Shown here one piece after another: positions 11,927-35,176 of a stretch of 45,874 bases of DNA. Each line of letters starts with the position of its first letter. Positions within the stretch are counted from its first letter, which is position 1. Under the pieces are notes generated by a model, which was not told the origin of the DNA, made no database searches, and saw only the letters and a program-made list of their open reading frames with translations. Source of the DNA: SAR324 cluster bacterium (lineage in GTDB: Bacteria; SAR324; JACQKK01); NCBI GenBank assembly GCA_022573975.1, contig JACZSY010000003.1:1-45874 (forward strand), read 5' to 3'. The position numbers and the translations under genes are program-made.

Positions 11927-12988
11927 TTACTCCAGTATCTTCTTCCTGCGGTTCTGTTCGTAGACATCCCTCAAAAATGGATAGAGGTCGATGGCGTCTT
12001 TTTTCAGGTTCTCATACTCCCCGATATGAAGGGAGGTGTCGTTGACTTTTTCAAATATTCGAACAGCCAACTCTTTCCGGGACGGATCGATAAATCGCTT
12101 GGGATCCAGGTAATAATCCGGAGCGAGGCTGAAAATGTCCCGCAGATTGGACGGCCCCAGGATGGGCAGGACAATATGGGGGCCGGCGCCCACCCCCCAA
12201 AATCCCAGCGTCTGTCCGAAGTCCTCTTCGTGGGCTTCCAGGCCGAACCATATCTTCGCCGGGTCCCACAACCCCAGCAGGCCAAGGGTCGAATTGATGC
12301 AAAAACGCAACAACTCTTCCCCCGCATTGAGGAATTTGGCCTGCAACACGTTGTTGATGAAGCGAACCGGGAAGAGCAGATTGCGCCAAAAATCGGCGAT
12401 CCTCCGCCGCCCGAATTCGGGCACGACGAAACGATATCCCCTGGCCGCGGGATCGAAGACATAAATGTAAAATCCATCGTTGAACGATGTGACGACGCGG
12501 TTGTAACCCTCGAAGGGATCGGAAATCGTGGCATCCAACGATTTTCCGAATTCCTCCTCGAACCCATCGAATTCATCGTCGTCATCGTCGTCATCGTCAT
12601 CCTTGGCGTCACCCCGGAGGTCCCTGTTTTTTTCGGGGGCGGCGGTTTTCTCCTCCGTTTGGGTTTTCCGCTCCGGCGGCCTTCCACCGGGGGCCGGGGC
12701 ATGCAAACCAACCAGTGTGATTCCGCTGTCCGGAGCGTTGGAAGCGTCATCGGGTCCGGTATCGCCGGCCCGGGCGGGAGGGGATACACGGCCAACGGCC
12801 GCAACAACCGCACCGGCCCCACCGCCCGCACCATCCGCGGCGATTGCACCGCCCGCACTGGCCGCACCGTCCCGGCAGGAGCCGTGGTTATTGGGATAGG
12901 GTCCAACAATCATGGCGGCCTGAAGTTCCGATCCCAATAAAAACCAGGGAATCAAAATACAGGTGACTACTCGAACGGCCTTTTTCAA
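11927..12988 (-). CDS. mlaA: MlaA (VacJ) outer-membrane lipid-asymmetry protein with acidic N-terminal extension
   Basis: About 353 residues with the start at TTG 12988, which gives a normal signal peptide (KKAVRVVTCILIPWFLLG, cleavage near LQA) and has AGGAAG five bases upstream. The ORF track starts at TTG 13051. The MlaA domain begins at about residue 150 with DPFEGYNR and continues with FPVRFINNVLQAKF, INSTLGLLGLWDPA and GVGAGPHIVLPILGPS, all typical of the family, which removes phospholipids from the outer leaflet. Two oddities: there is no lipobox Cys, though MlaA is normally a lipoprotein; and a long Gly/Ala/Pro-rich linker ends in nine Asp followed by EFDGFEEEF. The same acidic element occurs in the RND partner. 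It is first of the mlaA-mlaC-RND trio. Confidence 0.9.
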   Translation of the reverse strand: MKKAVRVVTCILIPWFLLGSELQAAMIVGPYPNNHGSCRDGAASAGGAIAADGAGGGAGAVVAAVGRVSPPARAGDTGPDDASNAPDSGITLVGLHAPAPGGRPPERKTQTEEKTAAPEKNRDLRGDAKDDDDDDDDDEFDGFEEEFGKSLDATISDPFEGYNRVVTSFNDGFYIYVFDPAARGYRFVVPEFGRRRIADFWRNLLFPVRFINNVLQAKFLNAGEELLRFCINSTLGLLGLWDPAKIWFGLEAHEEDFGQTLGFWGVGAGPHIVLPILGPSNLRDIFSLAPDYYLDPKRFIDPSRKELAVRIFEKVNDTSLHIGEYENLKKDAIDLYPFLRDVYEQNRRKKILE

Positions 12989-15807: not shown

Positions 15808-16176
15808 ATGCCGACATTGAACCAGTTGGTCAGAAAAAAGCGGAAGGCCAAGCAGACCAAGGCCAAAACCCCCGCGCTGCAGGCCTGTCCCCAGAAAAGA
15901 GGGGTTTGCGTGAGGGTTTACACCACCACTCCCAAAAAACCCAATTCGGCCATCCGCAAGGTGGCGCGGGTGCGGCTCACCAACGGGATCGAGGTCAACA
16001 GCTACATTCCAGGCATCGGGCACAACCTGCAGGAGCACTCGGTGGTGTTGATCCGCGGCGGCCGGGTGAAGGATTTGCCCGGGGTGCGGTACCACATTGT
16101 CCGCGGCACCCTGGACACCGCGCCAACGGCCGACCGCAAACAAAGCCGTTCCAAATACGGCACCAAGCGCAGTTGA
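15808..16176 (+). CDS. rpsL: Ribosomal protein S12
   Basis: 122 residues, the usual length. Part of the 30S decoding centre. [18 protein letters not shown] is present, as is the streptomycin-site loop region [19 protein letters not shown]-like sequence (here [19 protein letters not shown]). The first lysine region reads TTPKKPNS, the standard sensitive form. It opens the fused ribosomal cluster. The TGA stop is the first base triplet of a 15-bp tandem repeat. Confidence 0.97.
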
Positions 16177-16295: not shown

Positions 16296-16769
16296 ATGTC
16301 CAGAAGAAGACCCGCGGAAATCCGCAAAATACTGCCCGACCCCCGGTTCAACGATTTGTTGATCGCGAAATTCTGCAACGTGCTGATGGAGGACGGCAAA
16401 AAAAGCGTGGCGCGCAAAATCCTCTACCGGGCGATGGAGGAAATCGGCGCCCGGGAAAAAGAGTTTCCGCCGCTGGAAATCGTCAAGTCGGCCGTGGATC
16501 ACGTCAAGCCCACCGTGGAGGTGAAATCCCGGCGGGTGGGCGGCTCCACCTACCAGGTGCCGGTGGAGGTTCGCCACCAAAGGCGGGCGGCCCTGGCCAT
16601 CCGTTGGATCATTCAACACGCCCAGGCCAGGAACGGGAAAACGATGGAATCCAAATTGGCCAACGAATTGCTGGACGCCTTCAACAATCGGGGGGGTGCC
16701 ATCCGCAAGAAGGAAGACGTTCACAGAATGGCCGATGCCAACAAGGCCTTCGCCCATTATCGCTGGTGA
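16296..16769 (+). CDS. rpsG: Ribosomal protein S7
   Basis: 157 residues, typical. Binds the 3' major domain of 16S rRNA and shapes the 30S head and E site. It begins [18 protein letters not shown] and contains [19 protein letters not shown] and [26 protein letters not shown], all family signatures. No clear Shine-Dalgarno precedes ATG 16296, only GAGCAC. It sits 119 bases after rpsL, a wider gap than usual because of the repeat. Confidence 0.96.
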
Positions 16770-16871: not shown

Positions 16872-18959
16872 GTGCCCAGACAACACCCTATCGACCATTA
16901 CCGGAACATCGGCATCATGGCCCACATCGATGCCGGCAAGACCACCACCACCGAACGTGTGCTGTTTTACACCGGGCGCAGCCACAAGATGGGAGAGGTG
17001 CATGAAGGCGCGGCCACCATGGACTGGATGGAACAAGAGCAGGAGCGGGGCATCACCATCACTTCGGCGGCCACCTTCTGCCAATGGGAGGTGGATGGCG
17101 AGGAGTATTTCATCAATATCATCGATACCCCCGGCCATGTGGATTTCACCATCGAGGTGGAACGTTCCTTGAGGGTGCTCGACGGCGTGATCGCCATATT
17201 CGATGCGGTCAACGGCGTGGAACCGCAGTCCGAGACCGTATGGCGTCAGGCGGACAAGTACAACGTGCCCCGCATGGGCTTCATCAACAAAATGGACCGG
17301 GTGGGCGCCGATTTCGACAAATCGGTCGAGAGCATGCGCGAGCGGCTCAAAGCCAAGCCGGTGGCCCTGCAAATTCCGATCGGGATCGAGGACAAATTCA
17401 AGGGCATGATCGACCTGGTGCGCATGAAAGGGATCGTTTTCCAGGAAGAAACCCTCGGGGCCAAGTTCGACGTGGGGGAAATTCCCGCGGAACTGCGCGA
17501 GGCGGCCGAACAGGCCAGGTTGAAAATGCTCGACCTCATCTCGGTGGTGGACGACGACCTGACCGAGAAAATCCTGGAAGGCCGGGAAATCGCCCCGGAG
17601 GATATCGAGCGGGCCATCCGCACCGGCACCATCGGCGGACATTTCGTACCGGTGCTGCTGGGTTCGGCCTTCAAGAACAAGGGCGTACAGCAGTTGCTGG
17701 ACGGCGTGGTGAAATACCTTCCCTCCCCCCTGGATGTCCCTCCGATCAAAGGCCTCTCCCCCGACGGCAAAACAACCATCGAACGCAAAACCAGCGACGA
17801 CGAGCCGTTTTCCGCCCTGAGCTTCAAGGTGATGAGCGACCCTTACGTGGGCCAGCTCACCTATTTCAGGGTGTATTCGGGGAAGATCGCCCAGGGCATG
17901 CAGGTCTTCAACCCGGCCAAGGGCAAAAAAGAGCGGGTGGGGCGCATCATGCGCATGCACGCCAACAAGCGCGAGGAGGTGAGCGAGGTGTACGCCGGGG
18001 ACATCGCCGCGGGCATCGGCCTCCACGCCAATACCGGCGACACCTTCTGCGACCCCAACCACATCATCGTGCTGGAAAAGATGGATTTTCCCGAACCGGT
18101 GATCGACATCGCCCTGGAGCCCAAAACCAAGGCCGACTACGAGAAAATGGGCACGGCCCTGCAGCGGCTTACCCAGGAAGACCCCTCGTTCCGGGTGCAT
18201 ACCGACGAGGAGACCAACCAGACCATCATTTCCGGCATGGGCGAGCTGCACCTGGAAATCATCGTGGACCGGTTGAGACGCGAGTTCAAGGTGTCCAGCA
18301 GCGTGGGCAAGCCCCAGGTGGCCTACCGCGAAACAGTCACCAGGCCCATTGAAGTCAACAACAAATATGTCAAGCAGACCGGAGGGCGCGGTCAATACGC
18401 CCATACGGTGATCAAGGTGGAACCCCTGGCTCCGGGTTCGGGGTTCGAGTTCGAAAACAAGATCGTGGGGGGCAATATTCCCAGGGAATACATCCCCGCG
18501 GTGGAAAAGGGATTGCGCGAGGCGTTGTCTTCGGGGGTGATGGCCGGATATCCCGTGGTGGACTTGCGGGTGACCCTGGAAGATGGGTCCTACCACGATG
18601 TGGATTCTTCGGAAATCGCCTTTAAGATTTGCGCCTCCATGGCCCTCAAGGACGCCATGCGCAGGGGCAGGCCGGTTTTGCTGGAGCCGTTCATGAAGGT
18701 CGAAGTGGTCGTTCCCACCGATTACATGGGAGAGGTGATGGGCGATCTCAACTCGCGCCGCGGCCACATCAAGGGCATGGAGGAACGCTCGGGTGCCCAG
18801 GTGATCGGGGCCGATGTGCCCCTGGGGGAAATGTTCGGTTATTCCACCGTGCTGCGCTCCATGTCCCAGGGCCGCGCGACCTTTACCATGCAGTTTTCAC
18901 ATTATGAAAAAGTGCCCGGTTCGGTTTCGGATGAACTGTTGGCCCGAAAAGCGGGATGA
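16872..18959 (+). CDS. fusA: Elongation factor G
   Basis: 695 residues. This GTPase drives tRNA-mRNA translocation. G1 is [13 protein letters not shown] at 17-29, switch I includes [12 protein letters not shown]3 is DTPGHVDF, G4 is NKMD and G5 includes [10 protein letters not shown]; domains II-V follow, with [27 protein letters not shown] in domain IV. Start is GTG 16872, with TGGAG about 11 bases upstream. It follows rpsG by 102 bases and precedes tuf by 81, the classical str order. Confidence 0.97.
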
Positions 18960-19040: not shown

Positions 19041-20237
<1,197 letters not shown>

Positions 20238-20275: not shown

Positions 20276-20584
20276 ATGACGCAACAAATCAAAGTCCGCT
20301 TCAAGGCCTACGATCACACCCTTCTGGACCAAACGGTGCGGGAGATTGTCAACGCGGTGAAACGCACCGGGGCGGATGTCAACGGCCCCATTCCGCTGCC
20401 CACCCAACGCACGGTGATCACGGTGTTGCGGTCTCCGCACGTGGACAAGAAATCGCGGGAACAGTTCGAGACCCGCACCCACAAGCGGTTGATGTACATC
20501 ATCGATCCCACGCCGCAGACCATGGAAGCCCTGATGCGTCTCGAAATCTCCGCCGGCGTGGACATTACGATGAAGCAGGACTGA
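20276..20584 (+). CDS. rpsJ: Ribosomal protein S10
   Basis: 102 residues, as expected. Part of the 30S head and, with NusB, an antitermination factor. It contains [56 protein letters not shown] and [12 protein letters not shown]. Start ATG 20276. The next gene is rplD rather than rplC, so the L3 gene normally found here is missing. Confidence 0.97.
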
Positions 20585-20593
20585 AGCCGCCCC

Positions 20594-20616
20594 CCGGGCC
20601 ACCGATTGGCGCCCGG
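20594..20616 (+). other. Hairpin in the rpsJ-rplD gap, where rplC is expected
   Basis: CCGGGC and GCCCGG arms with an 11-base loop, ten bases after the rpsJ stop. The gap is only 99 bases and no residue of an L3 reading frame can be found in it. Confidence 0.45.
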
Positions 20617-20683
20617 CAACCTTTCCATCCCATGATTCGCGGCCGGGATGGAAGACCACTTTTTGGATGGACCACCAGCAACC

Positions 20684-21307
20684 ATGAGCAAGGTGCCGGT
20701 CATCAAGATGGATCAATCCAAGGCGGACGCGCTGGAAATGCCCGACTGGATTTCCTCCGCGCCCTTCAACCCGCTGTTGATCAAGGACGCGGTGGTGTAT
20801 CAGCAGGCCAAGATGCGCCAGGGCACCCATTCCTCCAAATCCCGCGGTCAGGTCACCGGCAGCACCCGCAAGCTTTACCGCCAGAAGGGCACCGGAAATG
20901 CGCGGGTGGGAGACAACAAGGCGACCCAGCGCCGCGGCGGTGGAATACCCCACGGCCCGAAACCCCGCGACCATGCCTTCAAGCTCAACAAAAAGGTGCG
21001 CAAGCAGGCCCTGCGTTCGGCCTTGGCGGAAAAACTGCGCTCCAAATGCCTGCTGGTGGTGGAGAAGATCGAACCGGAAACCCATAAAACGGGGCCTTTC
21101 GCCAAGTGGCTGCAGGAACTCAACGCGCCCGAAGCGCTGATCGTGACCGATCGCATCGGCGAAAATCTGGCCCGGGCCACCGGCAATCTGCCCAGCGTAA
21201 TGGTGATTCATTTCGGGCAGCTCAACGTCTACAACCTGCTGGTGTTCGAAAAAGCGATTTTCTCCCGCGAGGCCTTGTCGGCCCTGGAGGAAAGGTTGGC
21301 CCTATGA
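20684..21307 (+). CDS. rplD: Ribosomal protein L4
   Basis: 207 residues, normal for L4, which lines the exit tunnel and in many bacteria represses the S10 operon. The extended loop reads [34 protein letters not shown], followed by FGPKPRDH-type sequence ([24 protein letters not shown]). ATG 20684 is preferred over 20648 because the extra 12 residues are not conserved, though neither start has a strong ribosome binding site. The stop overlaps the rplW start (ATGA). Confidence 0.95.
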
Positions 21308-21588
21308 ACCTGAAAGTATTGAAGACCCCGCGCCTCACCGAAAAATCGGTGCTCCAGAAGGAAGTGTCCAATCAGGTGACCTTCATGGTGAACAAGGCCG
21401 CCAACAAGATCGAGATCAAGCGCACCATCGAGCAGGTGTTCAAGGTGACCGTGCTCAACGTGAACACCATCAGCAACCGGGGCAAGAAAAAACGGATGGG
21501 ACGGTTCACGGGCCGCAGGCCGGACTGGAAAAAGGCCATCGTCACCTTGAAAGAGGGCGACAAGATCGAATATTTCGAGGGCGCATGA
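21304..21588 (+). CDS. rplW: Ribosomal protein L23
   Basis: 94 residues. Binds 23S rRNA at the exit tunnel and docks trigger factor and SRP. Signatures are [12 protein letters not shown] at the start, [29 protein letters not shown] in the middle and [24 protein letters not shown] at the end. Start ATG 21304 overlaps the rplD stop by four bases, implying coupled translation. Confidence 0.96.
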
Positions 21589-21595
21589 CCGCTCA

Positions 21596-21617
21596 TGGGC
21601 CGGTGCGCTCCGGCCCA
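21596..21617 (+). other. Intercistronic hairpin between rplW and rplB
   Basis: TGGGCCGG-TGCGCT-CCGGCCCA: a perfect 8-bp stem with a six-base loop, seven bases after the rplW stop, without a T run. It lies in a 164-base gap that otherwise shows no gene. Confidence 0.55.
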
Positions 21618-21752
21618 CCCATGGAACAGGGACGCCCCATGGGCGGCAGCTTGAGCGCGGAACTTTTACCGCCAAACCCTTTGCGTCCGGATTCACCGCT
21701 GGCGGCCCAGGCCGCCGGTTGACACAGGAAAAGAGAAAAACCGCCGATCATC

Positions 21753-22577
21753 ATGCCCATACGCAAATACAAGCCAACATCGCCCGGCAGACGCGGCATG
21801 AGCGTGTCCACCTTCGAGGAGCTGACCACCGGCAACACGCCCGAACGCTCCCTGTTGCGGCCGCTGAAGAAGTCCGGCGGACGCAACAACCGGGGGCGGA
21901 TCACCGTGCGCCACCGCGGCGGCGGGCACAAGCGCCGCTACCGGATAATCGATTTCAAGCGCAACAAAATCGGCGTGCCCGGGCGGATCGCCACCATCGA
22001 ATACGATCCCAACCGCAACGCCCGCATCTCCCTGGTGATCTACGCGGACGGGGAAAAGCGTTATATCATCTCCCCCAACACCATTGCCGTCGGCGACACG
22101 GTGATGTCCGGGCCGGAGGCGGAAATCCGGGTGGGCAATACGCTGCCACTGCGCAATATTCCCCTGGGCAGCATCGTACATTGCGTGGAACTCAAGGCGG
22201 GCAAGGGCGCGCAACTGGCCCGGGCCGCCGGAACCTCGGTGGTGCTGGCCGCCAAGGACGACAACTACGCCCAGATCCGGCTGCGCTCCGGGGAGATTCG
22301 CAAGGTGCGGCTGGAATGCATGGCCACCATGGGCGAGGTGGGCAATGGTGATCACAGACACATCCAACTGGGCAAGGCCGGCCGGAAACGCTGGCTGGGC
22401 ATCCGGCCCACCGTGCGCGGGGTGGCCATGAATCCCGTCGACCACCCCCATGGGGGCGGCGAGGGAAAGACTTCGGGTGGACGGCACCCGGTGACCCCCT
22501 GGGGCAAACCCACCAAAGGTCACCGCACGCGCCGCAACAAGCGCACCGACCCGATGCGGGTGCGGCGCAGGAAATAA
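21753..22577 (+). CDS. rplB: Ribosomal protein L2
   Basis: 274 residues, standard. Needed for subunit joining and peptidyl transfer. Contains [22 protein letters not shown], the RNA-binding core, and [17 protein letters not shown] with the conserved His in the HPHGGG loop. ATG 21753. It is separated from rplW by a longer gap than usual, containing a hairpin. Confidence 0.97.
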
Positions 22578-22675
22578 CCCCGCCGGGCAACCGCCCGGGG
22601 CTGGAGATATCCGCTTCGGGCTGGAGATGGAGCGGAGGAAATAAATTGGAACACAGCATCCTGCAAGGAGCTTAA

Positions 22676-22957
22676 GTGCCAAGATCATTGAAAAAAGGAC
22701 CGTTCGTCGACAAGCACCTGATGACAAAGGTACTGCGGGCAAAAGAAACCGACGACAGGAGGCTGATTCGCACCTGGTCCCGCAGGTCGGTGATCCTGCC
22801 CGAATTCGTCGGGGTCAACCTGGCGGTTCACAACGGGAACAAGCACATTCCGGTGCTGATTACGGAAAACATGGTGGGACATAAACTGGGCGAGTTCGCC
22901 CCCACCCGCACCTATCGGGGGCATACCTCGAAAACCGACCACCGCGGCGGCCGCTAG
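22676..22957 (+). CDS. rpsS: Ribosomal protein S19
   Basis: 93 residues. In the 30S head with S13. Reads [14 protein letters not shown] at the N-terminus and [17 protein letters not shown] near the C-terminus, as in the family. Start is GTG 22676 with AAGGAG six bases upstream. Confidence 0.96.
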
Positions 22958-23080
22958 GGAACCAACACACGGCGCCGGTGAACGGCGCCAAAAATATGGC
23001 ACAGGGCGGAATCGCCGCCCGCGGCGAGAAGTCCGCTTGAAGGCGGCATAACCCAAAGCAAGCAAACTGGCACGGCGATC

Positions 23081-23446
23081 ATGGCGGACAGTACGACAGA
23101 AAAGGCAACCTCGGCGGCATCCTATACGGCCGTCGCCAAAGGTATTCGCATCTCGCCGCGAAAGGTGCGGCTGGTGATCGACCTGATTCGGGGAAAGAAC
23201 GTGGCCCTGGCCCTGGGCATCCTGGACAGCGTCAACAAGGGCTCGGCCCCGGTGGTCAAGACCCTGCTCAAATCGGCCATCGCCAACGCGGAAAACCAGA
23301 ACGAGAATATCGAGGTGGACACCCTTGTGATCCAGAAAGCGTTCGTGGACGCGGGACCCACCCTGAAGCGCTGGAGGCCCCGCGCGATGGGACGGGCCTC
23401 GCCCATCCGCAAGCGCAGCAGCCGCATCACGCTGACGGTGGGTTGA
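23081..23446 (+). CDS. rplV: Ribosomal protein L22
   Basis: 121 residues, with about ten extra N-terminal residues rich in Ser/Thr/Ala compared with E. coli (110). Its beta-hairpin reaches the exit tunnel. Family blocks are [33 protein letters not shown] and [29 protein letters not shown]. The last three codons and stop (ACG GTG GGT TGA) are the first unit of the tandem repeat that fills the gap to rpsC. Confidence 0.95.
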
Positions 23447-23526
23447 AAAACGGTGGGCTGATTAAACGGGTGGGTCGATTTAACGGTGGTTGGACAAACG
23501 GTGGTTGGACAAACGGTGGTTGAAAT
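23435..23526. repeat. 15-17 bp degenerate tandem repeat from the rplV stop codon to before rpsC, six copies
   Basis: Units are ACGGTGGGTTGAAAA (23435), ACGGTGGGCTGATTAA (23450), ACGGGTGGGTCGATTTA (23466), ACGGTGGTTGGACAA (23483 and 23498) and ACGGTGGTTGAAAT (23513). The first unit is the coding end of rplV plus its TGA; homogeneity increases toward rpsC. Confidence 0.88.
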
Positions 23527-23587
23527 AATCAGAGGGTTGAAAATTCATGGATTCGATAATTCCGTGGGATGACACCAAGGAGGAACA

Positions 23588-24286
23588 GTGGGTCAAAAAG
23601 TAAATCCAATCGGCTTCAGGCTCATCCTCACCAAAAACTGGACCAGCAAATGGTATGCGGACCGCCGCACCTACGCCGACCAGTTGGAAGCGGATTTCAA
23701 GGTCACCCAGTATATCAAGAAGCACCTCAAGCATGCGGGGATTTCCCGCATCGAGGTGGAGCGGGCGGCCCAGAAAATCAAGGTGACCATCTTCGCTTCG
23801 CGCCCCGGGATCATCATTGGCCGGAAAGGCGAAGCCGCCGATCAGCTAAAGGATGAACTGGTCAAACTGGGCAAGACCGACGTCACGATCAACATCAAGG
23901 AAGTGAAACGCCCGGAAATCGACGCCCAGTTGCTGGCGGAAAACATCGCCACCCAGCTGGAGCGGCGCATCGCCTTCCGCCGGGCCATCAAGCGCTCGCT
24001 GGCTTCCGCCATGCGGCTGAACATCGCGGGTTGCAAAATCATGGTGGGCGGGCGGCTCAACGGCGCGGAAATGTCCCGCAAGGAATGGGTTCGCGACGGG
24101 CGCGTGCCCCTCCATACGCTGCGGGCGGAAATCGATTACGGCACCACCGAGGCCATGACCACCTACGGCATCATCGGCGTCAAGGTCTGGGTGTACAAGG
24201 GCGAGGATTACAACCAGCCCCGCCTCCTCCGCCGCCGCGGCGGCCGGGAGAACCGCTCCGACAACCCGCCCAGGAACAAGGAATAA
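23588..24286 (+). CDS. rpsC: Ribosomal protein S3
   Basis: 232 residues. At the mRNA entry channel. Begins [12 protein letters not shown]; the KH domain has [13 protein letters not shown], and the C-terminal domain [31 protein letters not shown]. Start GTG 23588 with a strong AAGGAGGAA. rplP follows after four bases. Confidence 0.96.
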
Positions 24287-24290
24287 AGCC

Positions 24291-24701
24291 ATGTTGATGC
24301 CCAAGCGCACCAAATACCGCAAAGTGATGAAAGGCCGCATGAAGGGCAATACCAAGGGGGGCGGCAAGCTCAACTTCGGCGCCTATGGGTTGCAGGCGGT
24401 GGAACGGGGCATGGTCACGGCCCGGCAAATCGAAGCCAGCCGCCGCGCCCTGACCCGTGAGATGAAACGGCGGGGCAAGGTCTGGATTTCCGTCTTTCCC
24501 CACAAACCCATCACCCAGCGGGCCGCCGAGGTGCGCATGGGCGGAGGAAAAGGGGCCGTGGACCATTGGTCGGCCGTGGTCAAGCCGGGCCGGGTGCTGT
24601 TCGAGATGGATGGCGTGGAAGAGGAGGTCGCCATGAGCGCGCTCCGCCTGGCCGCCTACAAGTTGTCCATCAAGACCACCGTGATCAAGCGCGGAGCATA
24701 A
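24291..24701 (+). CDS. rplP: Ribosomal protein L16
   Basis: 136 residues. Near the A-site tRNA elbow. Reads [19 protein letters not shown] and [25 protein letters not shown], classical L16 blocks. Start ATG 24291; the internal ATG two codons later is an alternative. Confidence 0.96.
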
Positions 24702-24707
24702 ACCAGC

Positions 24708-24914
24708 ATGAACACCAACGAGATGCGGCAATTTTCCTCCGAGGAACTGGAAGCCCGGCTCGCCGAATGGGAGGAAGATTTGTTCAAGGACCGCTGTTCG
24801 CAAGTGCTTGGGCAAGTGACCGACACCACCAGTATTCGCCTGAAGCGCCGTCACATCGCGCGGGCCAAGACCATTATCAACGAGATGAGGCGCGATGCCG
24901 CAAGCCAAGGCTGA
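24708..24914 (+). CDS. rpmC: Ribosomal protein L29
   Basis: 68 residues, two predicted helices, near the exit tunnel beside L23. [27 protein letters not shown] and [19 protein letters not shown] match L29, though the middle is more divergent than usual. It overlaps rpsQ by 20 bases. Confidence 0.9.
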
Positions 24915-25182
24915 AACCGAAAAACGCACCACCCGCCGCAAGGTAAGGCAAGGCGTGGTGGTCAGCGACAAAGCTGAAAAAACAATCGTGGTGAAGGTCG
25001 AACGCCGGATGACCCATCGCCTTTACAAAAAAATAATCCGGCGCTCGAAAAATTATCATGTGCACGATGAGGGCAATACCTCCAAGGTGGGCGATGTGGT
25101 TCGCATCATGGAATGCCGGCCTCTCAGCCGCACCAAACACTGGCGCCTGCTCGAAATCGTGGTCAGCGCGGAGCAGATATAA
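24895..25182 (+). CDS. rpsQ: Ribosomal protein S17
   Basis: 95 residues. Primary 16S binder of the 30S body. [28 protein letters not shown] and [36 protein letters not shown] are diagnostic. Start ATG 24895 lies inside rpmC; a later start is unlikely because the conserved N-terminal arm begins soon after. Confidence 0.94.
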
Positions 25183-25207
25183 AAACAGGCGGCTAAATAA
25201 AACGGCG

Positions 25208-25245
25208 CCATGGGCAAAAGCGGAAAATTCCGATTTGGCCCATGG
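25208..25245 (+). promoter_or_regulatory. Long intercistronic hairpin at the S10/spc operon boundary
   Basis: CCATGGGC and GCCCATGG (8 bp) enclose, after near-continuous A-T pairing, CGGAA-AA-TTCCG (5 bp). In total about 16 bp pair over 38 bases with two mismatches. It sits between rpsQ and rplN, the place where E. coli separates the S10 and spc operons. No T run follows. It could be a protein-binding leader, a processing site or an RNA stabiliser. Confidence 0.6.
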
Positions 25246-25280
25246 AACTTCGCAACTGTAATTATCGGAAACCAGCAGTC

Positions 25281-25649
25281 ATGATACAAATGCAAACCAT
25301 GCTCAGGGTGGCGGACAACACGGGCGCCAAAAAGTTGATGTGCATCAAGGTGCTCGGAGGCTCCAAGCGCCGTTATGCCTCCATCGGCGACATCATCGTG
25401 GCCTCGGTGAAGGACTCCGTCCCCAACAGCCGCATCAAGAACGGCGAGATCGTGCGGGCCGTGGTGGTGCGCACCACCAAGGAAATTGGCAGGAACGACG
25501 GCTCCTACATCAAGTTCGACGAAAACGCGGCGGTGTTGATCGACGCGAAAAAGGAACCGCTGGGAACCCGCATCTTCGGCCCCGTGGCCAGGGAATTGCG
25601 GTTCCGGCAGTTCATCAAGATCATTTCACTGGCACCCGAAGTGCTCTAA
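25281..25649 (+). CDS. rplN: Ribosomal protein L14
   Basis: 122 residues, exact family length. Contacts 16S rRNA at an intersubunit bridge. [27 protein letters not shown] and [23 protein letters not shown] are hallmark sequences. ATG 25281 is chosen; the ORF-track start at 25242 runs into the hairpin. Confidence 0.97.
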
Positions 25650-25696
25650 GGCGAAGACGCCCTGTATCCACCGGTCAACAGGAACGACGAGAGATC

Positions 25697-26020
25697 ATGA
25701 GAAGCGCGGTTCAGCCCAAGCTGAGAAAATCGAAATTCAAACAAGGGGATCAGGTAATGGTGATCTCCGGGAAGTCCAAGGGCAAAACCGGCGAAGTGCT
25801 GCGGATCGACCTGAGCAGGAGCATGGTGTTCGTCAAGGACTGCAACGTCCAGATGCGCCACACCAAGCCCCGCCGGCAAGGCGAAAGCGGAGGCATCATC
25901 CCCCAGGAAGGCGCCATCCATTTCTCCAACGTGTTGCAGCTTTGCGAGACGTGCAGCCGCGGGGTGCGCAAGCTGTGCGAAAAACCGGCGGAGTGCCGCT
26001 ACAACAAGAAGAACCAATAG
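25697..26020 (+). CDS. rplX: Ribosomal protein L24 with cysteine-rich tail
   Basis: 107 residues. Assembly initiator of the 50S. The KOW motif QGDQVMVISGKSKGKTGEVLRID is at about 15-37, followed by RRQGESGGIIPQEGAIHFSNV. The C-terminus reads LCETCSRGVRKLCEKPAEC, i.e. C-x2-C-x7-C-x5-C; many L24 proteins have a CPKCGKPTR element here, so this is a rearranged version that could bind zinc. Start ATG 25697. Confidence 0.94.
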   Translation: MRSAVQPKLRKSKFKQGDQVMVISGKSKGKTGEVLRIDLSRSMVFVKDCNVQMRHTKPRRQGESGGIIPQEGAIHFSNVLQLCETCSRGVRKLCEKPAECRYNKKNQ

Positions 26021-26025
26021 CACCT

Positions 26026-26034
26026 TGGTATAAA
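26026..26034 (+). promoter_or_regulatory. Possible extended -10 promoter before rplE
   Basis: TGGTATAAA fits an extended -10 (TG-N-TATAAT type), in an AT-rich patch between rplX and rplE. No -35 is visible. An internal promoter is possible but weakly supported. Confidence 0.25.
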
Positions 26035-26105
26035 TTATAGACACCCCGGGCGAAAAGCCGCCAACGCGCGGCCGGAGGCCCTTCATCGAACAGGTGGTTG
26101 GAATC

Positions 26106-26648
26106 GTGTCCAGATTGCAGGAAAAATACCAAAACGACGTCAAGACCACGTTGCTGAAGGAATTCAGCTACAAAAGCCCGATGCAGGTTCCCGGGATGGT
26201 CAAGATTTCCCTCAACATCGGGGTGGGAGAGGCCATTGGCAACGCCAAAATACTGGAATCGGCCCAGGCGGAAATGACCAGGATTTCCGGGCAGAAATCG
26301 GTGATCACCTACGCCCGCAAATCCATCGCCGCCTTCAAGCTGCGCGAGGGGATGGCGATCGGGGTGATGACCACCTTGCGGCGTCAGAAAATGTGGGATT
26401 TCATGGATCGCTTCATCTCCGTCGCTCTGCCCCAGGTGCGCGATTTCCGCGGGCTTTCCCGCCGTTCTTTCGATGGGCATGGCAATTATACGGTGGGAGT
26501 GCGCGAACAAATCATCTTCCCGGAAATCAGTTTTGAAGACATCGACCAGATTCGCGGCATGAACGTGACCTTTCACACCACCGCCAGAACCGATGAGGAA
26601 GGCCTGCGCATGTTGGAGTTGATCGGAATGCCGTTTCGGAAAAATTAG
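26106..26648 (+). CDS. rplE: Ribosomal protein L5
   Basis: 180 residues with start GTG 26106, the family length, and AGGTGG eight bases upstream. The ORF-track GTG 26094 has no ribosome binding site and adds four residues. Binds 5S rRNA and the P-site t[55 protein letters not shown] and [18 protein letters not shown] are typical. Confidence 0.95.
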
Positions 26649-26651
26649 CGC

Positions 26652-26693
26652 GATTTCAGTCTTTGGCGCCCCCGGCGGGGGCGTGATGAAATC
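26652..26693 (+). promoter_or_regulatory. Two-tier hairpin between rplE and rpsN
   Basis: An outer stem GATTTCA/TGAAATC encloses a perfect inner stem CGCCCCC-GGC-GGGGGCG. Both are perfect and together span 42 bases, starting three bases after the rplE stop. No T run. Possibly a regulatory or processing structure in the spc part of the transcript. Confidence 0.55.
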
Positions 26694-26762
26694 CGGCGAA
26701 CCGGGCCGATATTGGATAGTATGGAAAAGACGATAACCAGAACCGCATAAACGACAGGATCC

Positions 26763-26948
26763 ATGGCAAAAAAAAGCATGATCGCCAAGGCAAAGCGCCG
26801 GGCGAAATTCAAGGTGCGCCAACATTCCCGCTGCCGCTATTGCGGCCGCCCCCGCAGTTTCCTGAGGAAATTCGGGATGTGCCGGATTTGTTTCCGCATG
26901 AAGGCGCTCGCCGGTGTGCTGCCAGGCGTGACCAAGGCCAGTTGGTAG
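26763..26948 (+). CDS. rpsN: Ribosomal protein S14, zinc-binding type
   Basis: 61 residues, the short C+ form (type Z). [20 protein letters not shown] supplies the four zinc-ligand cysteines, C-x2-C then C-x2-[25 protein letters not shown] is the usual lead-in. The zinc-independent long form has about 100 residues, so this cell depends on zinc S14 unless a second copy exists elsewhere. Confidence 0.96.
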
Positions 26949-26958
26949 AGCGATCAAC

Positions 26959-27003
26959 GGCCTCGCTTTTCGGAGCGAGGCCTGAAAACCCCGGCTTTTT
27001 TTT
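26959..27003 (+). terminator. Hairpin plus T8 between rpsN and rpsH, possible attenuator
   Basis: GGCCTCGC-TTTTCGGA-GCGAGGCC is a perfect 8-bp stem starting ten bases after the rpsN stop. A run of eight T follows, but 13 bases later, so it is not a canonical terminator. As it lies inside an essential cluster, partial termination or RNA processing is more likely than full termination. Confidence 0.4.
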
Positions 27004-27081
27004 CGCCACCCGCGGCGGGAAATAGAGCCGCGGAACCTATATTTTGCAGCGCGACGCGCATAAAAATCAGGAGTTTGATTC

Positions 27082-27483
27082 ATGTCGATGACCGATCCGA
27101 TCGCGGATTTTCTCACGCATATCCGCAATGCCCTGATGAGAAAACACGCCTCGGTGGAAAGCCCATCCTCCAAAATCAAGACCGAAATCGCCCGGGTGCT
27201 CAAGGAGGAAGGCTTCATCGTGGATTGGAACATGACCGAGGATGAAAAAGGGATGCCGCGCATCGCGGTGGAACTGAAATACGACAAGAACGGGGAAAGC
27301 GTGATCCGGGGCATCAAGCGCATCAGCAAGCCCGGCCAGCGGCGCCATGCGGGGTGCCAGGATTTGCGCCCGATATACAACGGCCAGGGAATCGCCGTGG
27401 TCACCACTTCCAAGGGCCTGATGACGGATTTTTCCTGCCGCGAGCAAAAAATCGGCGGGGAAGTGATCTGCCATGTGTGGTAA
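27082..27483 (+). CDS. rpsH: Ribosomal protein S8
   Basis: 133 residues. Central 16S binder; in E. coli the repressor of the spc operon. MTDPIADFLTHIRNALMRKH at the start and VTTSKGLMTDFSCREQKIGGEVICHVW at the end are diagnostic. ATG 27082 has AGGAG nine bases upstream. Confidence 0.96.
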   Translation: MSMTDPIADFLTHIRNALMRKHASVESPSSKIKTEIARVLKEEGFIVDWNMTEDEKGMPRIAVELKYDKNGESVIRGIKRISKPGQRRHAGCQDLRPIYNGQGIAVVTTSKGLMTDFSCREQKIGGEVICHVW

Positions 27484-27569
27484 CGCGCCCCGGCAGCCCG
27501 CACCCAGGCGGCGGAGTGGCGTCACGGCGGCGCGATTTGACGCGGCATAACGGATAAGGAAACAAAGCG

Positions 27570-28112
27570 ATGTCCAGAGTGGGAAAAAGAATCATCCAGG
27601 TTCCAAAAGGCGTCGAAATCCGCTATGAGGCGCGCGAGATTCACATCAAAGGGCCCAAGGGGGAGAACCGGTTCAAAGTGCCCGAATTGGTGGAGTTGGA
27701 AATCGGCGGCGATGAAATCAAGGTGCAGGCCGATTACATCAACAACACCAAGGCCCGCGCCATGATGGGCACGGTGCAGGCTTGCATCAGCAACATGGTG
27801 GTGGGGGTTTCCGAGGGGTTTTCCCGCGGCCTGATGTTGGAGGGTGTTGGATACAGGGCCAAGGTGGAAGGGGAGAAGCTGGAATTGCTGCTGGGATTCT
27901 CGCACCCGGTCAGCCTGAAGCTCCCGCCGGGTGTGCGGGCGGAGGTGGTGGACATGAGAAGAATTATCCTGACCAGCCACGACAATGTGCTGCTGGGACA
28001 GACCGCCGCCAATATCCGGGCCCTTCGGCCGCCCGAGCCGTTTCAGGGCAAGGGCGTGCTCTACGAAAACGAGCACATCCGCCGCAAGGCGGGCAAGAGC
28101 GGAAAGAAATAA
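27570..28112 (+). CDS. rplF: Ribosomal protein L6
   Basis: 180 residues. Near the sarcin-ricin loop. MSRVGKRIIQVPKGVEI at the start and the C-terminal block QTAANIRALRPPEPFQGKGV...IRRKAGKSGKK identify it. ATG 27570 follows AAGGAAA. Confidence 0.96.
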   Translation: MSRVGKRIIQVPKGVEIRYEAREIHIKGPKGENRFKVPELVELEIGGDEIKVQADYINNTKARAMMGTVQACISNMVVGVSEGFSRGLMLEGVGYRAKVEGEKLELLLGFSHPVSLKLPPGVRAEVVDMRRIILTSHDNVLLGQTAANIRALRPPEPFQGKGVLYENEHIRRKAGKSGKK

Positions 28113-28195
28113 CACGGAAATATCGACGCCGGAAATTTTACACCGGGACAATCCAAACCGACGCCGAAACTCAAGGTCAAGGACTTTAACCCAGC

Positions 28196-28567
28196 ATGAC
28201 AACTCGACTTAGCCGGCCGGAACGGCGCAAGAAGCGCCAATTCCGGATTCGAAAGAAAATCAGGGGATCGAAGGAAATTCCCCGCCTCAGCGTATTCCGC
28301 TCCGCACGGAACATATACGTCCAGGCGGTGGACGATGACACGGGCCAGACCCTGACCACGGCCTCCACCAGGGAAAAGGAAATCAAGGAATCCCTCAAAG
28401 GGTATCCGGGCAACAAGGAAGCGGCCGCCATGGTGGGGAAGACCCTCGCCCAGCGGCTGAAAAAACTGGGTGTCGAAAAGGCCGTGTTCGACCGCGGAGG
28501 GAGCCGTTACACTGGCCGCGTGGCCGCCCTGGCCGATGCGGCCCGCGAGGGCGGATTGAAAATTTGA
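28196..28567 (+). CDS. rplR: Ribosomal protein L18
   Basis: 123 residues. Binds 5S rRNA. Basic N-terminus RPERRKKRQFRIRKKIRG, then PRLSVFRSARNIYVQAVDDD, and a C-terminal VFDRGGSRYTGRVAALADAAREGGL, all typical. ATG 28196. Confidence 0.96.
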   Translation: MTTRLSRPERRKKRQFRIRKKIRGSKEIPRLSVFRSARNIYVQAVDDDTGQTLTTASTREKEIKESLKGYPGNKEAAAMVGKTLAQRLKKLGVEKAVFDRGGSRYTGRVAALADAAREGGLKI

Positions 28568-28642
28568 CCCAACCCGCCTCCGCCCAATGGCGGGTGTGGG
28601 GGAATGAGCCAGAAACTTAATCGAAAATCACGAGGACAATCC

Positions 28643-29155
28643 GTGAGCGAGTCAGCAGGCGAAAAGAGCGACCTGATAGAAAAGGTAATCAGAATCAACC
28701 GGGTGGCCAAGGTGGTGAAAGGCGGCCGCCGGTTCAGTTTCAGCGCCCTGGTGGTGGTCGGCGATGCCAAGGGCCGCGTGGGTTGCTCCCTGGGCAAAGC
28801 CAACGAGGTGACCGAGGCCATCCGCAAGGGCATCGAAGGCGCCACCAAGGCCATGAAGCCCGTGGTGATCGAGGGACGAACGATTCCCTATCAGACCATC
28901 GGCAGGTTCGGAGCCAGCCGGGTGGTGATGAAGCCCTGCGAGCCGGGGCGCGGCATCATCGCCTCGGGGCCGGTGCGCGCCATCATGGAAGCCTTGGGCA
29001 TCCACGATATCTCCGCCAAGAACCTGGGCTCGAACAACCCCCATAACGTCGTCAAGGCGACCCTCTTCGCGCTGTACCAACTCAAATCCTTTGAGGAAAT
29101 CGCCGAGCGCAGGGGCGTGCCCGTGGAACGCCTGCGCGGCGCCATGGCCGGATAA
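28643..29155 (+). CDS. rpsE: Ribosomal protein S5
   Basis: 170 residues with start GTG 28643, which has GAGGA six to seven bases upstream and gives the normal family length; the ORF-track ATG 28604 adds 13 non-conserved residues. Maintains decoding accuracy with S4. [34 protein letters not shown] and [17 protein letters not shown] are diagnostic. Confidence 0.95.
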
Positions 29156-29170
29156 GGAGGAAGATCCAAG

Positions 29171-29368
29171 ATGAGCAAGGTAACGGTCAAGATGATGCGC
29201 AGCGCCATCGGGTTTCCCAGGGATCAGCGGGCCACCCTGCTGGGGTTGGGCCTGAAACGAATCAACCAACAGCGGGAGTTGGAAGACACCCCGGCGGTGC
29301 GTGGCATGATCTTCAAGGTGAAACACCTGGTCCATGCCGAACCGCCCAAATCGCCGGAACGAGACTAG
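29171..29368 (+). CDS. rpmD: Ribosomal protein L30
   Basis: 65 residues, the short bacterial form. [31 protein letters not shown] is the family core. ATG 29171 has AAGGAGGAAG. It sits between rpsE and rplO as in E. coli. Confidence 0.94.
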
Positions 29369-29374
29369 CACGAG

Positions 29375-29869
29375 ATGAATCTACATCAATTGGAAAACGC
29401 GCCCGGCGCCCGGCGCAAGGCCAAACGGAAAGGACGCGGACACGCCAGCACGCTGGGGAAAACCGCCGGCCGCGGCCAGAAAGGCCAAAAAGCGCGCAGC
29501 AAGGTGGCTCCCGGTTTCGAAGGCGGGCAGACGCCCTTGCGGAGAAGGCTGCCCAGGCGCGGTTTCAAGAACCCCTTCAAGGCGCGCTTCCATATCGTCA
29601 ACCTCCGCGACCTGGCCCGGCGGCCCTTGCTGGCGGACAAGACCACCATCGGCCTCGACGATTTGATCGCGGCCAATCTGATCGACAAGACTGTGAAGAA
29701 ACCCGCTGAAAACGGCGAGGGATTCACGCGAAAGCCCCGTTACCCGGTCAAAGTGCTGGGGACGGGGGATTTGGGACGGGCGGTCACCGTCCAGGCGCAT
29801 CGCTTCAGCCGTTCCGCCGCCGAAAAAATCAAGGCGGCCGGCGGAGAAGCGGTGGTGATCGAAGGATGA
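29375..29869 (+). CDS. rplO: Ribosomal protein L15
   Basis: 164 residues, slightly longer than E. coli (144) through an insertion of about ten residues near 110-122. LHQLENAPGARRKAKRKGRGHASTLGKTAGRGQKGQKAR and GFEGGQTPLRRRLPRRGF are diagnostic. It ends seven bases before secY. Confidence 0.95.
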   Translation: MNLHQLENAPGARRKAKRKGRGHASTLGKTAGRGQKGQKARSKVAPGFEGGQTPLRRRLPRRGFKNPFKARFHIVNLRDLARRPLLADKTTIGLDDLIAANLIDKTVKKPAENGEGFTRKPRYPVKVLGTGDLGRAVTVQAHRFSRSAAEKIKAAGGEAVVIEG

Positions 29870-29876
29870 TGAAATC

Positions 29877-31232
29877 ATGCTGAGCGCATTTCAAAACGCT
29901 TTCCGGATCGAGGAACTCAGAAACCGCATCTTCTTCACGCTGTTGATGCTGATGGTGTTCCGGCTGGGGGCTCATATTCCCACCCCCGGCATCGACAGCA
30001 CCGCCCTGGCGGAATTTTTCAAGGCGCAGGAAGGCACCATATTTTCGTTCTTCGACATGTTCTCCGGCGGCGCATTGCAGAGACTGACCGTGTTCGCGCT
30101 GGGAATCATGCCCTACATCAGCGCGTCGATCATCATCCAGTTGCTCACGGTGGTCTTTCCCTACCTGGAGCGCCTGAGCCGCGAAGGCGAGGCCGGGCGC
30201 CGCAAGATCACCATGTACACCCGCTATGGCACCGTCGGCCTGAGCATCGTGCAGGGTTTCGGCATCGCGGTGGGGCTGGAGTCCATGGCCTCCCCGGAAT
30301 CCGGCGCCCCCATCGTGATTTCCACCATGAGTTCCTGGGGGTTCCGCGCCCTCACCGTGATCACGCTGACCGCGGGCACGGCGTTTTTGATGTGGATTGG
30401 CGAGCAGATCAACGAGCGGGGCATTGGCAATGGGATTTCCCTGATCATCTTCGGCGGAATCGTCACCGACATTCCCGGCGCCGTCATCAACTCGATTCAA
30501 CTGGTTCAGGCCGGTCAGCTCGCTTCGTTGGTGTTGGCTCTGGTGGGCGTCATCATGATCGGCGTGATTTTCGCGGTGATCTTCATGGAAACCTCCACCC
30601 GCCGCATCGCGGTGCAATATGCCAAACGGGTGCAGGGCAACAAGATGTACGGCGGGCAAAGTTCACACCTGCCCTTGAAGATCAACTCCGCCGGAGTGAT
30701 TCCGATCATTTTCGCCTCTTCGATTCTGGCGTTTCCGTCCACCATCACCGGTTTCATCGCCACCAGCCAGTCGGACAGCCTGTTCATACAAATCATGCGG
30801 GCGGTCAGCCAGCAAATGACGCCCACGGCACTGTTGTATAATATTTTCTATGTTATGATGATCTTTTTCTTTTGCTTTTTTTACACGGCGATTCAGTTCA
30901 ATCCGGTGAAAATCGCCGACGAGATGAGAAAATTCGGCGGTTACATACCGGGCATCCGCCCCGGTCAGAAGACTGCGGAGTATATCAACCAGGTTTTGAC
31001 CCGGATCACCTTTGGCGGCGCGATTTATCTGTCGGCGGTCTCTGTGTTGCCGGTGATCCTTTTTTCAATTCTCAACGTTCCCTTTTTCTTCGGCGGCACC
31101 GCGCTGTTGATCGTGGTTGGCGTCGGGCTGGACACGGTGCGGCAAATCGAGGCCTTTCTCCTCAACCGCAATTACGACGGTTTTCTCAAGAAGAGCAAAC
31201 GCCGAACCGGTATGAGAACCTTGCGCATATAG
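29877..31232 (+). CDS. secY: Protein translocase subunit SecY
   Basis: 451 residues, ten transmembrane helices expected. Channel of the Sec translocon. FRLGAHIPTPGIDSTALAEFF follows helix 1, GIMPYISASIIIQLLTVVFPYLERLSREGEAGRRKI is the signature near 80-115, and the cytoplasmic loop carries FNPVKIADEMRKFGGYIPGIRPG. ATG 29877 follows AAGGATGATG. It is in its canonical spc position, nine bases before adk. Confidence 0.97.
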   Translation: MLSAFQNAFRIEELRNRIFFTLLMLMVFRLGAHIPTPGIDSTALAEFFKAQEGTIFSFFDMFSGGALQRLTVFALGIMPYISASIIIQLLTVVFPYLERLSREGEAGRRKITMYTRYGTVGLSIVQGFGIAVGLESMASPESGAPIVISTMSSWGFRALTVITLTAGTAFLMWIGEQINERGIGNGISLIIFGGIVTDIPGAVINSIQLVQAGQLASLVLALVGVIMIGVIFAVIFMETSTRRIAVQYAKRVQGNKMYGGQSSHLPLKINSAGVIPIIFASSILAFPSTITGFIATSQSDSLFIQIMRAVSQQMTPTALLYNIFYVMMIFFFCFFYTAIQFNPVKIADEMRKFGGYIPGIRPGQKTAEYINQVLTRITFGGAIYLSAVSVLPVILFSILNVPFFFGGTALLIVVGVGLDTVRQIEAFLLNRNYDGFLKKSKRRTGMRTLRI

Positions 31233-31240
31233 GGCAGCCA

Positions 31241-31882
31241 ATGCGGGTAATTTTCCTGGGCCCCCCCGGATCGGGGAAGGGGACTCAGGCCAAACGGTTG
31301 GTGGCATCCCACGGAATCCCCCAGATTTCCACGGGGGATTTGTTGCGGGAGGCGGTGCGGGACGACACCCCGTTGGGCCGTGAAGCCAATGGGTACATGA
31401 CCGCTGGAAATTTGGTGCCGGACCGTCTGGTGATCGCTTTGCTGTTGGAAAGGATCCGACGGCCCGATTGCGGCGGCGGTTTCATTCTCGATGGGTTTCC
31501 ACGAACCCTGGCCCAGGCCGAGGCGCTTGAGGAAGCCCTGAAAGAGAAAGCGCAGCCGGTGGAGGTGGTGGTCAATCTGGAAATCGACACCGGCGAAGTG
31601 GTGGAAAGGCTGATCGGACGCAGGGTCTGCCCCAACGGCCATGGCGAGTGGCACATCCGCTTCAACCCGCCAAAAGAGGCCAACCGATGCGACAGATGCG
31701 GCGACCCCTTGATTCAACGCGAGGACGACCAGGAAGAAAGTATTCGAACACGCATGGAGGCATATTCCAGGGACACCAAACCCCTGATCGATTATTACCG
31801 GAACCAGGGGTTGCTCCATACCATCGACGCCCTGGGGAATTTGGACCAGGTCACCGGGAAAATCGAGCGGATATTCAGTTGA
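31241..31882 (+). CDS. adk: Adenylate kinase with zinc-type lid
   Basis: 213 residues. Interconverts AMP and ATP with two ADP. GPPGSGKGTQ is the P-loop at 7-16, STGDLLR the AMP site and FILDGFPRT the NMP region. The long lid contains RRVCPNGHGEW and NRCDRCGDP: a Cys/His pair plus a CxxC, suggesting a structural zinc with one Cys replaced by His. ATG 31241 lies nine bases after secY. The next gene is infA; map, which often follows adk, is absent. Confidence 0.96.
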   Translation: MRVIFLGPPGSGKGTQAKRLVASHGIPQISTGDLLREAVRDDTPLGREANGYMTAGNLVPDRLVIALLLERIRRPDCGGGFILDGFPRTLAQAEALEEALKEKAQPVEVVVNLEIDTGEVVERLIGRRVCPNGHGEWHIRFNPPKEANRCDRCGDPLIQREDDQEESIRTRMEAYSRDTKPLIDYYRNQGLLHTIDALGNLDQVTGKIERIFS

Positions 31883-31965
31883 ACCGCGGTTCGGCCGCGA
31901 CCCAGTCCCCGCGGCGCCAGCCCGGGCCAGTGTAACAAACCATCACCCGCAACAAGGAGCCAGGT

Positions 31966-32184
31966 TTGCCGAAGGAAGATCATATCGAAGTAGAAGGCGT
32001 TGTTGTCGAATCCCTGCCAAACGCCATGTTCCGGGTGGAACTGCAGAACGGCAAGAAAATTCTGGCGCATATATCCGGCAAAATGCGGATGCACTACATC
32101 CGGATTCTCCCCGGAGACAAGGTGACGGTGGACATGTCACCTTACGACCTGACACGGGGCCGCATCACATACCGGGGCAAATAA
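31966..32184 (+). CDS. infA: Translation initiation factor IF-1
   Basis: 72 residues, the standard size. OB-fold protein occluding the A site during initiation. [64 protein letters not shown] is the hallmark sequence. Start is TTG 31966 with AAGGAG six to seven bases upstream. Confidence 0.96.
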
Positions 32185-32257
32185 CCCGCGGAGAATCGGC
32201 CCAGCATATTGAACATGCCATTTGGCGAAACCGTTAACAAAAGACATCAGGCACACC

Positions 32258-32371
32258 ATGAAAGTCAGATCGTCGGTAAAAAAGATGTGCGATCATTGCA
32301 AGCTGATCCGCCGCCGGGGGGTTCTGCGCGTCATTTGCCCGAACCCAAAACACAAGCAGCGGCAAGGCTGA
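32258..32371 (+). CDS. rpmJ: Ribosomal protein L36
   Basis: 37 residues, too short for the ORF track. It reads [20 protein letters not shown] then [14 protein letters not shown]. The zinc ligands C11, C14, C27 and H32 are all present, so this is the C+ form. It lies between infA and rpsM as in most bacteria. No strong Shine-Dalgarno precedes it. Confidence 0.96.
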
Positions 32372-32444
32372 CCGTCTTCATCCCATGACATCGCCGCGCC
32401 GCATGACATCGCCGCGGGCGGCGGGGTCGCTGTAAAGAGAGCTT

Positions 32445-32470
32445 ATTTTCCGCCGCCAGCGGCGGAAAAT
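32445..32470 (+). promoter_or_regulatory. Perfect 26-base palindrome at the spc/alpha operon boundary
   Basis: ATTTTCCGCCGC-CA-GCGGCGGAAAAT has perfect 12-bp arms. It lies between rpmJ and rpsM, 35 bases before the rpsM start. Flanking A and T runs would let it act as a bidirectional terminator or an RNA leader hairpin; in E. coli the alpha operon leader just before rpsM binds S4. A CATGACATCGCCGCG duplication lies just upstream. Confidence 0.6.
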
Positions 32471-32505
32471 GAACCCATTTAAAAAGATTCACCAAGGAGC
32501 AACAC

Positions 32506-32865
32506 GTGGCCCGAATCGCAGGGGTGGACCTCCCCAACAAACGAATGGTGGTGGCGCTAACCTATATTTTCGGCATCGGACGCACCACCTCGGGAAAAAT
32601 CCTGGCCAGGGCCGGCATCGACGAAAGCCTCCGCCCGGACTCCCTCACCGATGGGCAGATCACCTCGTTGCGGGAGCTCATTGGCGAAAACCGGGTCGAA
32701 GGAGAACTGCGGGGCGAGGTGCAATTGAACATCAAGCGCCTGATGGACCTGGGCAATTACCGGGGCCTGCGGCACAGAAAGGGCTTGCCGGTGCGGGGAC
32801 AACGCACCAAGACCAATAGCCGCACCCGCAAGGGGCCACGGCACAAGATCGGCGCCAAGAAGTAG
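32506..32865 (+). CDS. rpsM: Ribosomal protein S13
   Basis: 119 residues. Bridges the 30S head to the 50[26 protein letters not shown] and [26 protein letters not shown] are diagnostic. Start GTG 32506 with AAGGAG. Confidence 0.96.
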
Positions 32866-32942
32866 CGCGCGAACACAACCCATGCGCCGGGCGCTCCCCC
32901 AAGGCCCGGCCACGGACAACAATTTCACCATCGGGAATCCGA

Positions 32943-33335
32943 ATGGCCAGAGGCAAACGAACCAGCGGCAAACGAAAAGAAAAGAAGAATATTCCGGTTG
33001 GCATCTGCCACATCACCGCCAGCTTCAACAACACCATCATTTCTTTCACCGATCCCCAGGGAAACGTGGTGGCCTGGTCCTCCACGGGCACCGTCGGTTT
33101 CCACGGCTCGCGCAAGAGCACGCCTTACGCCGCCAAAACAGCGACCGAAGACGCGGTGCGCAAAGCCCGGGACCAGGGCATGCGCCAGGTGGACGTGCAC
33201 GTCAAAGGCCCAGGCAGCGGCCGGGAATCGGCCCTGCGCGCGCTGGCGGCCGAAGGATTGAAAATCACCAACATCCGCGATGTGACGCCAGTGCCCCATA
33301 ATGGGTGCAAACCGCCCAAGATGCGCCGGATTTAA
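32943..33335 (+). CDS. rpsK: Ribosomal protein S11
   Basis: 130 residues. In the 30S platform. [25 protein letters not shown] and [22 protein letters not shown]...[18 protein letters not shown] are typical. ATG 32943. Confidence 0.96.
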
Positions 33336-33378
33336 CGGCCTGCGGCGGCTCGATTTGGCGAACCCGGTTCGCACCGGG

Positions 33379-33464
33379 CACTGTTCACAGCAAGCACTGT
33401 TCACAGCAAGCACTGTTCACAGCAAGCACTGTACAGCAAGCACTGTACAGCAAGCACTGTTCAC
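33379..33464. repeat. 14/16-bp tandem repeat upstream of rpsD, six copies, each with a dyad
   Basis: CACTGTTCACAGCAAG at 33379, 33395 and 33411; CACTGTACAGCAAG (two bases shorter) at 33427 and 33441; and a partial CACTGTTCAC at 33455. Each unit carries CTGT-(TC)-ACAG; in the short units it is the perfect palindrome CTGTACAG. It ends about 20 bases before the rpsD start. Confidence 0.92.
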
Positions 33465-33485
33465 ACCTTAGCAAGGAGACCTCTT

Positions 33486-34115: not shown

Positions 34116-34140
34116 GCCCCTTCAAAAGATGGAGAGTTTG

Positions 34141-35169: not shown

Positions 35170-35176
35170 GGATGAG

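Follow-up and report, generated by a model that had tools for sequence, protein, structure and literature searches.

The ribosomal protein L3 gene lies outside the S10 operon across sampled SAR324 genomes

The canonical bacterial S10 operon runs rpsJ-rplC-rplD-rplW-rplB-rpsS-rplV-rpsC-rplP-rpmC-rpsQ, and few bacterial gene orders are as stable as its rpsJ-rplC-rplD segment. Other breaks in the S10-str region are known: in some phyla S10 is separated from the other operon genes, and in the known cases rplC remains beside rplD. The SAR324 phylum is alike in that a conserved ribosomal operon has been broken by relocation of one part, but it differs in that an internal gene, the L3 gene rplC at position 2 of the canonical order, has left and both of its neighbours have closed up, with a spacing of −1 to 99 nt between rpsJ and rplD. 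A second well-described cluster, the trmD operon (rpsP-rimM-trmD-rplS), is also relevant. Contig C382 of the genome studied here likewise carries ffh, rpsP, rimM, trmD, rplS, rnhB, and yraN in order, and in the family to which this genome belongs (f1) the 3′ end of the operon is extended by rpsT and the relocated rplC. The relocation of operon genes is known in kind, and the notable part is the phylum-wide loss of so conserved a gene order. Literature searches of open-licence papers returned no report of rplC relocation or of SAR324 ribosomal operons.

The window, which is the whole 45,874-nt stretch of SAR324 DNA analysed here (contig C83), keeps all other members of the S10 operon in order, with the str cluster fused on at the 5′ side (tuf-rpsJ) and spc-alpha at the 3′ side. 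Its str-S10-spc-alpha order is rpsL, rpsG, fusA, tuf, rpsJ, 99 nt, rplD, rplW, and on to rplQ (Table 1). The start of rplD lies exactly 99 nt after rpsJ, and no L3 frame was present when this gap was inspected. In addition, an L3 family search over all 428 contigs of the assembly gave no match on C83, while the checked r-protein genes from rplD through rplQ were all found in the window by Pfam or NCBIfam. It had been noted in the initial annotation that L3 is missing from between rpsJ and rplD and from the remainder of the window, with the other S10, spc, and alpha members present; the first two statements hold, and the third holds for the genes checked. An Rfam search of the window and of the sampled L3 loci gave no known leader. 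The rplQ frame encodes 238 aa, in which the L17 domain occupies residues 29–125 and is followed by an unmatched C-terminal extension of ~110 residues.

Table 1. Positions of the ribosomal genes, the empty rplC site, and the rplC-associated features discussed in the text.
Feature	Sequence	Position	Strand	Basis
rpsL (S12), start of str part	window	15808–16176	+	translation read by eye
rpsG (S7)	window	16296–16769	+	translation read by eye
fusA (EF-G)	window	16872–18959	+	Pfam EFG domains
tuf (EF-Tu)	window	19041–20237	+	Pfam GTP_EFTU domains
rpsJ (S10), gene 5′ of empty site	window	20276–20584	+	PF00338, E=1.2e-36
empty site, 99-nt rpsJ-rplD junction, position of rplC in other phyla	window	20585–20683	+	gene coordinates and phylum comparison
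rplD (L4), gene 3′ of empty site	window	20684–21307	+	PF00573, E=3.8e-61
rest of S10-spc-alpha, rplW to rplQ, with secY, adk, infA, rpmJ, rpoA	window	21304–35866	+	Pfam/NCBIfam matches for genes tested
rplQ frame	window	35150–35866
rplC (L3)	C382 (L001)	12072–12704 (1207–1839)		L3 family search
TIGR03625 match within rplC	L001	1207–1836		TIGR03625
rpsP (S16) with long tail	L032	7483–8343
hairpin upstream of g11 rplC	L002	1133–1215		alignment A2, with nine other loci
Xer-like tyrosine recombinase, f3	L050	5702–6676	−
Xer-like tyrosine recombinase, f3	L049	5654–6646	−
Xer-like tyrosine recombinase, f3	L047	6180–7154	+
tuf in two pieces	L080 (G031:C3)	about 806–808 kb

The whole assembly holds exactly one L3 match, which lies on C382. 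This gene is complete, encodes 210 aa, and scores 262.6 bits against TIGR03625 (curated cut-off 142.9, E=2.5e-78) over profile positions 1–201 of 202. Judged by these sequence matches, its product is a full-length bacterial ribosomal protein L3 (TIGR03625, PF00297). It is the last gene of a same-strand cluster, ffh-rpsP-rimM-trmD-rplS-rnhB-yraN-rpsT-rplC, in which rimM and rnhB were assigned from reading translations and the others by homology or family search. The trmD-yraN-rpsT-rplC order occurs in all eight family genomes where L3 was found (one has trmD only partly on its contig), and ffh is upstream in all five whose fetched stretch extends to it. Relocation of L3 was one of the possibilities raised in the initial annotation, to be followed up by a search of the remaining genome; the single complete copy on another contig, in a neighbourhood common to 8/8 family genomes with L3, bears it out. 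In L032, the S16 domain of rpsP is followed by a tail, longer than 150 residues, that is rich in Ala, Glu, and Lys.

C382 could in principle be contamination, with the true genome lacking or hiding its L3, and its G+C content of 63.6% compared to 59.6% in the window would fit such a reading. However, the tetranucleotide make-up of C382 correlates with that of the window at r=0.96, compared to 0.95 when the first 17.6-kb piece of the window is set against the second, and the estimated contamination of the assembly is 0.93%. Moreover, the L3 of this genome is 66–78% identical to that of seven other family members, in which the gene order is alike. Contamination is thus highly improbable, and the shared family gene order and L3 identity leave neither it nor assembly error as a reasonable explanation.

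The wider phylum, a group described in PMC9031357, was sampled with 52 genomes, all of them draft assemblies from one class and four families. A 16S rRNA sequence was recovered from one of nine genomes searched, and neither 16S nor a FISH probe yielded a sequence usable for placing the phylum. L3 was found in 45/52, L4 in 47/52, and both in 42/52; the lack of a detected L3 in the other 7/52 is consistent with incompleteness of the drafts. In the 42 genomes with both genes, L3 and L4 are never adjacent and are mostly on separate contigs, and in the two genomes where they share one contig they are 305 kb (G004) and 181 kb (G031) apart. The rpsJ-rplD junction could be read in 35 genomes, with each of the four families represented, and was L3-less every time, with a spacing of −1 to 99 nt, of which the 99 nt of the window is the longest. 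Chance is no issue for this junction because it recurs in so many genomes. In G031, tuf is found in two pieces in different frames, which is likely a frameshift or sequencing error.

These comparisons bear on a second proposal of the initial annotation, namely that a local deletion in this strain or an assembly collapse took rplC out of the window. The assembly is a fragmented draft, and ribosomal protein genes are known to drop out of metagenome-assembled genomes (PMC9723686), both of which count in favour of the proposal. It is nevertheless contradicted by the same L3-less junction in 35 separately assembled genomes (34 relatives, whose arrangement was to be checked, plus the window), by the same-contig separation of L3 and L4 in G004 and G031, and by the intact L3 elsewhere in the same genome, and its probability is accordingly very small. 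Phylum-wide sharing means that the rpsJ-rplD gap goes back to an ancient rearrangement passed on by descent, not to a fault of the assembly. A collapsed assembly, a deletion specific to this strain, and contamination were all rejected on the grounds that the junction is shared phylum-wide and that C382 carries an intact, family-conserved L3.

Outside the phylum the arrangement is the canonical one. A set of 80 named L3 loci was fetched by L3 sequence alone, with L4 counted as adjacent if within 300 nt. L4 lies within this distance in 79/79 named loci from outside the phylum, which cover Firmicutes, Chloroflexi, Acidobacteria, Poribacteria, Thermotogae, and others. The sole exception among the 80, L082, apparently comes from a phylum member (G026). 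L3 also adjoins L4 in 5/5 outgroup genomes, in one of which (G055) no S10 was found next to the pair. Adjacency outside the phylum indicates that the move of rplC is derived and, by parsimony, took place in one event before the phylum radiated.

It is therefore very likely that rplC moved out of the S10 operon a single time, earlier than the last common ancestor of the phylum, that the site closed, and that one intact copy elsewhere supplies L3. In such a single ancient event, rplC would have been copied to a new site and the old copy then lost, and the old site would have closed cleanly to leave rpsJ directly followed by rplD. A native origin of the gene was examined with one tree for L3 and one for L4+L23. 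The 30 phylum members sampled form one group in both, with support of 0.93 for L3 and 0.98 for L4+L23. Family f1 is recovered in both trees, while f3 is recovered in the L4+L23 tree and has the f4 genome nested inside it in the L3 tree.

An alternative is that native rplC was lost and that a horizontally acquired L3 was inserted elsewhere before the phylum diversified. The gene does sit at a new site, and the L4+L23 tree places the phylum beside Acidobacteria (support 0.89), whereas the L3 tree, built from a short alignment whose deep branches are poorly resolved, gives no resolution there. Against this, the L3 sequences of the phylum form one group, no outside lineage is a supported sister, and holding L3 to the Acidobacteria placement costs only 4.8 log-likelihood units and is not rejected (p-AU 0.35). 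The L3 trees thus carry no sign of foreign replacement, which leaves a foreign origin improbable, and relocation of the native rplC appears to be the simplest reading of the two sets of sequences.

After the move, rplC came to occupy diverse surroundings. Comparison of 2.5 kb on either side of the gene across genera gives nine unrelated neighbourhood classes in the phylum, and so at least nine settings. These are the trmD-rpsT cluster in f1; a position beside mltG in genus g11, a carbamoyltransferase class in g14 and g15, and four further classes in g12, g13, g16, and g17, all within f2; a recombinase class in f3; and ftsW/rodA-rplC-cmk in f4. The neighbourhood of a solitary gene is expected to drift, so this diversity of settings does not have to reflect active mobility.

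L3 acts early in the assembly of the 50S subunit (PMC10931766). With rplC outside the S10 operon, L3 would have to be expressed from a different promoter and would escape any L4 feedback acting on the operon. The window's family would probably have solved this by expressing rplC along with another ribosomal cluster. Scanning C382 for promoters gave none upstream of rplC, and the rpsT-rplC interval has no terminator-like site on the forward strand. Both results agree with co-transcription without proving it; rplC is probably transcribed together with the ffh-rpsT cluster in this family. In g11 and f3, sigma70-like promoters were seen by eye just upstream of rplC, and in these groups it would be a lone gene behind its own putative promoter. 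In ten g11 species, a conserved 7-bp hairpin lies between this promoter and the ribosome-binding site, with 94% of alignment cells pairing compared to 36–53% in slid controls and only one double compensatory change. Three other g11 species look different at this site, and a regulatory leader on the lone g11 rplC is a weak lead from alignment.

Family f3 is distinct in that a tyrosine recombinase adjoins the 3′ end of rplC in 10/10 genomes. In G041 and G043 the two genes point the same way, whereas in the other f3 genomes they converge. The recombinase copies are 57–67% identical to that of G051 and are single in each genome except G050, which has a second copy (49% identical); at E<=1e-20 the recombinase is absent from f1, f2, and f4. 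The family matches that score best are of the Xer type (XerA_Arch, E from 3e-19 to 7e-25, below the curated cut-off), and XerA and a XerC-like recombinase are the best-matching relatives of solved structure. XerS and XerH are known Xer systems with one recombinase located next to the dif site.

In the three f3 genomes examined, the rplC-recombinase pair lies 13–30 kb from the cumulative GC-skew peak: at 340.6 kb with the peak at 310.5 kb on a 577-kb contig in G043, at 63.3 kb with the peak at 76.4 kb in G046, and at about 68.7 kb with the peak at about 50 kb in G048. Where dnaA was found in f3 genomes, it is on a different contig from the pair. A search for a shared dif-like site around the recombinase found no 12-mer common to 7/9 genomes. 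Together, sequence and position suggest that the pair is at the replication terminus with a Xer/dif role. That rplC has settled permanently next to a Xer-like system that has one recombinase, is inherited vertically, and lies at the terminus, the lowest-dosage place on the chromosome, is a tentative proposal, somewhat less likely to be right than wrong. A terminus position would not be general, since rplC is far from the GC-skew peak in the f1 genome G004.

If the proposal is true, L3 in f3 would be an essential ribosomal protein with a gene dosage opposite to the usual origin-proximal position, and rplC and the recombinase would have been carried as a linked pair through several neighbourhood changes. 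For the phylum as a whole, the clean loss of rpsJ-rplC-rplD shows that function can be retained when an internal gene moves out of the operon. The L3-less junction can serve directly as a rare-genomic-change marker for the phylum. There is a practical caution as well, as pipelines that gather their ribosomal proteins from the S10-spc block will overlook L3 here or call it absent. Finally, the phylum offers a natural test of whether the supply of L3 has to be coupled to that of L4 and the other operon members.
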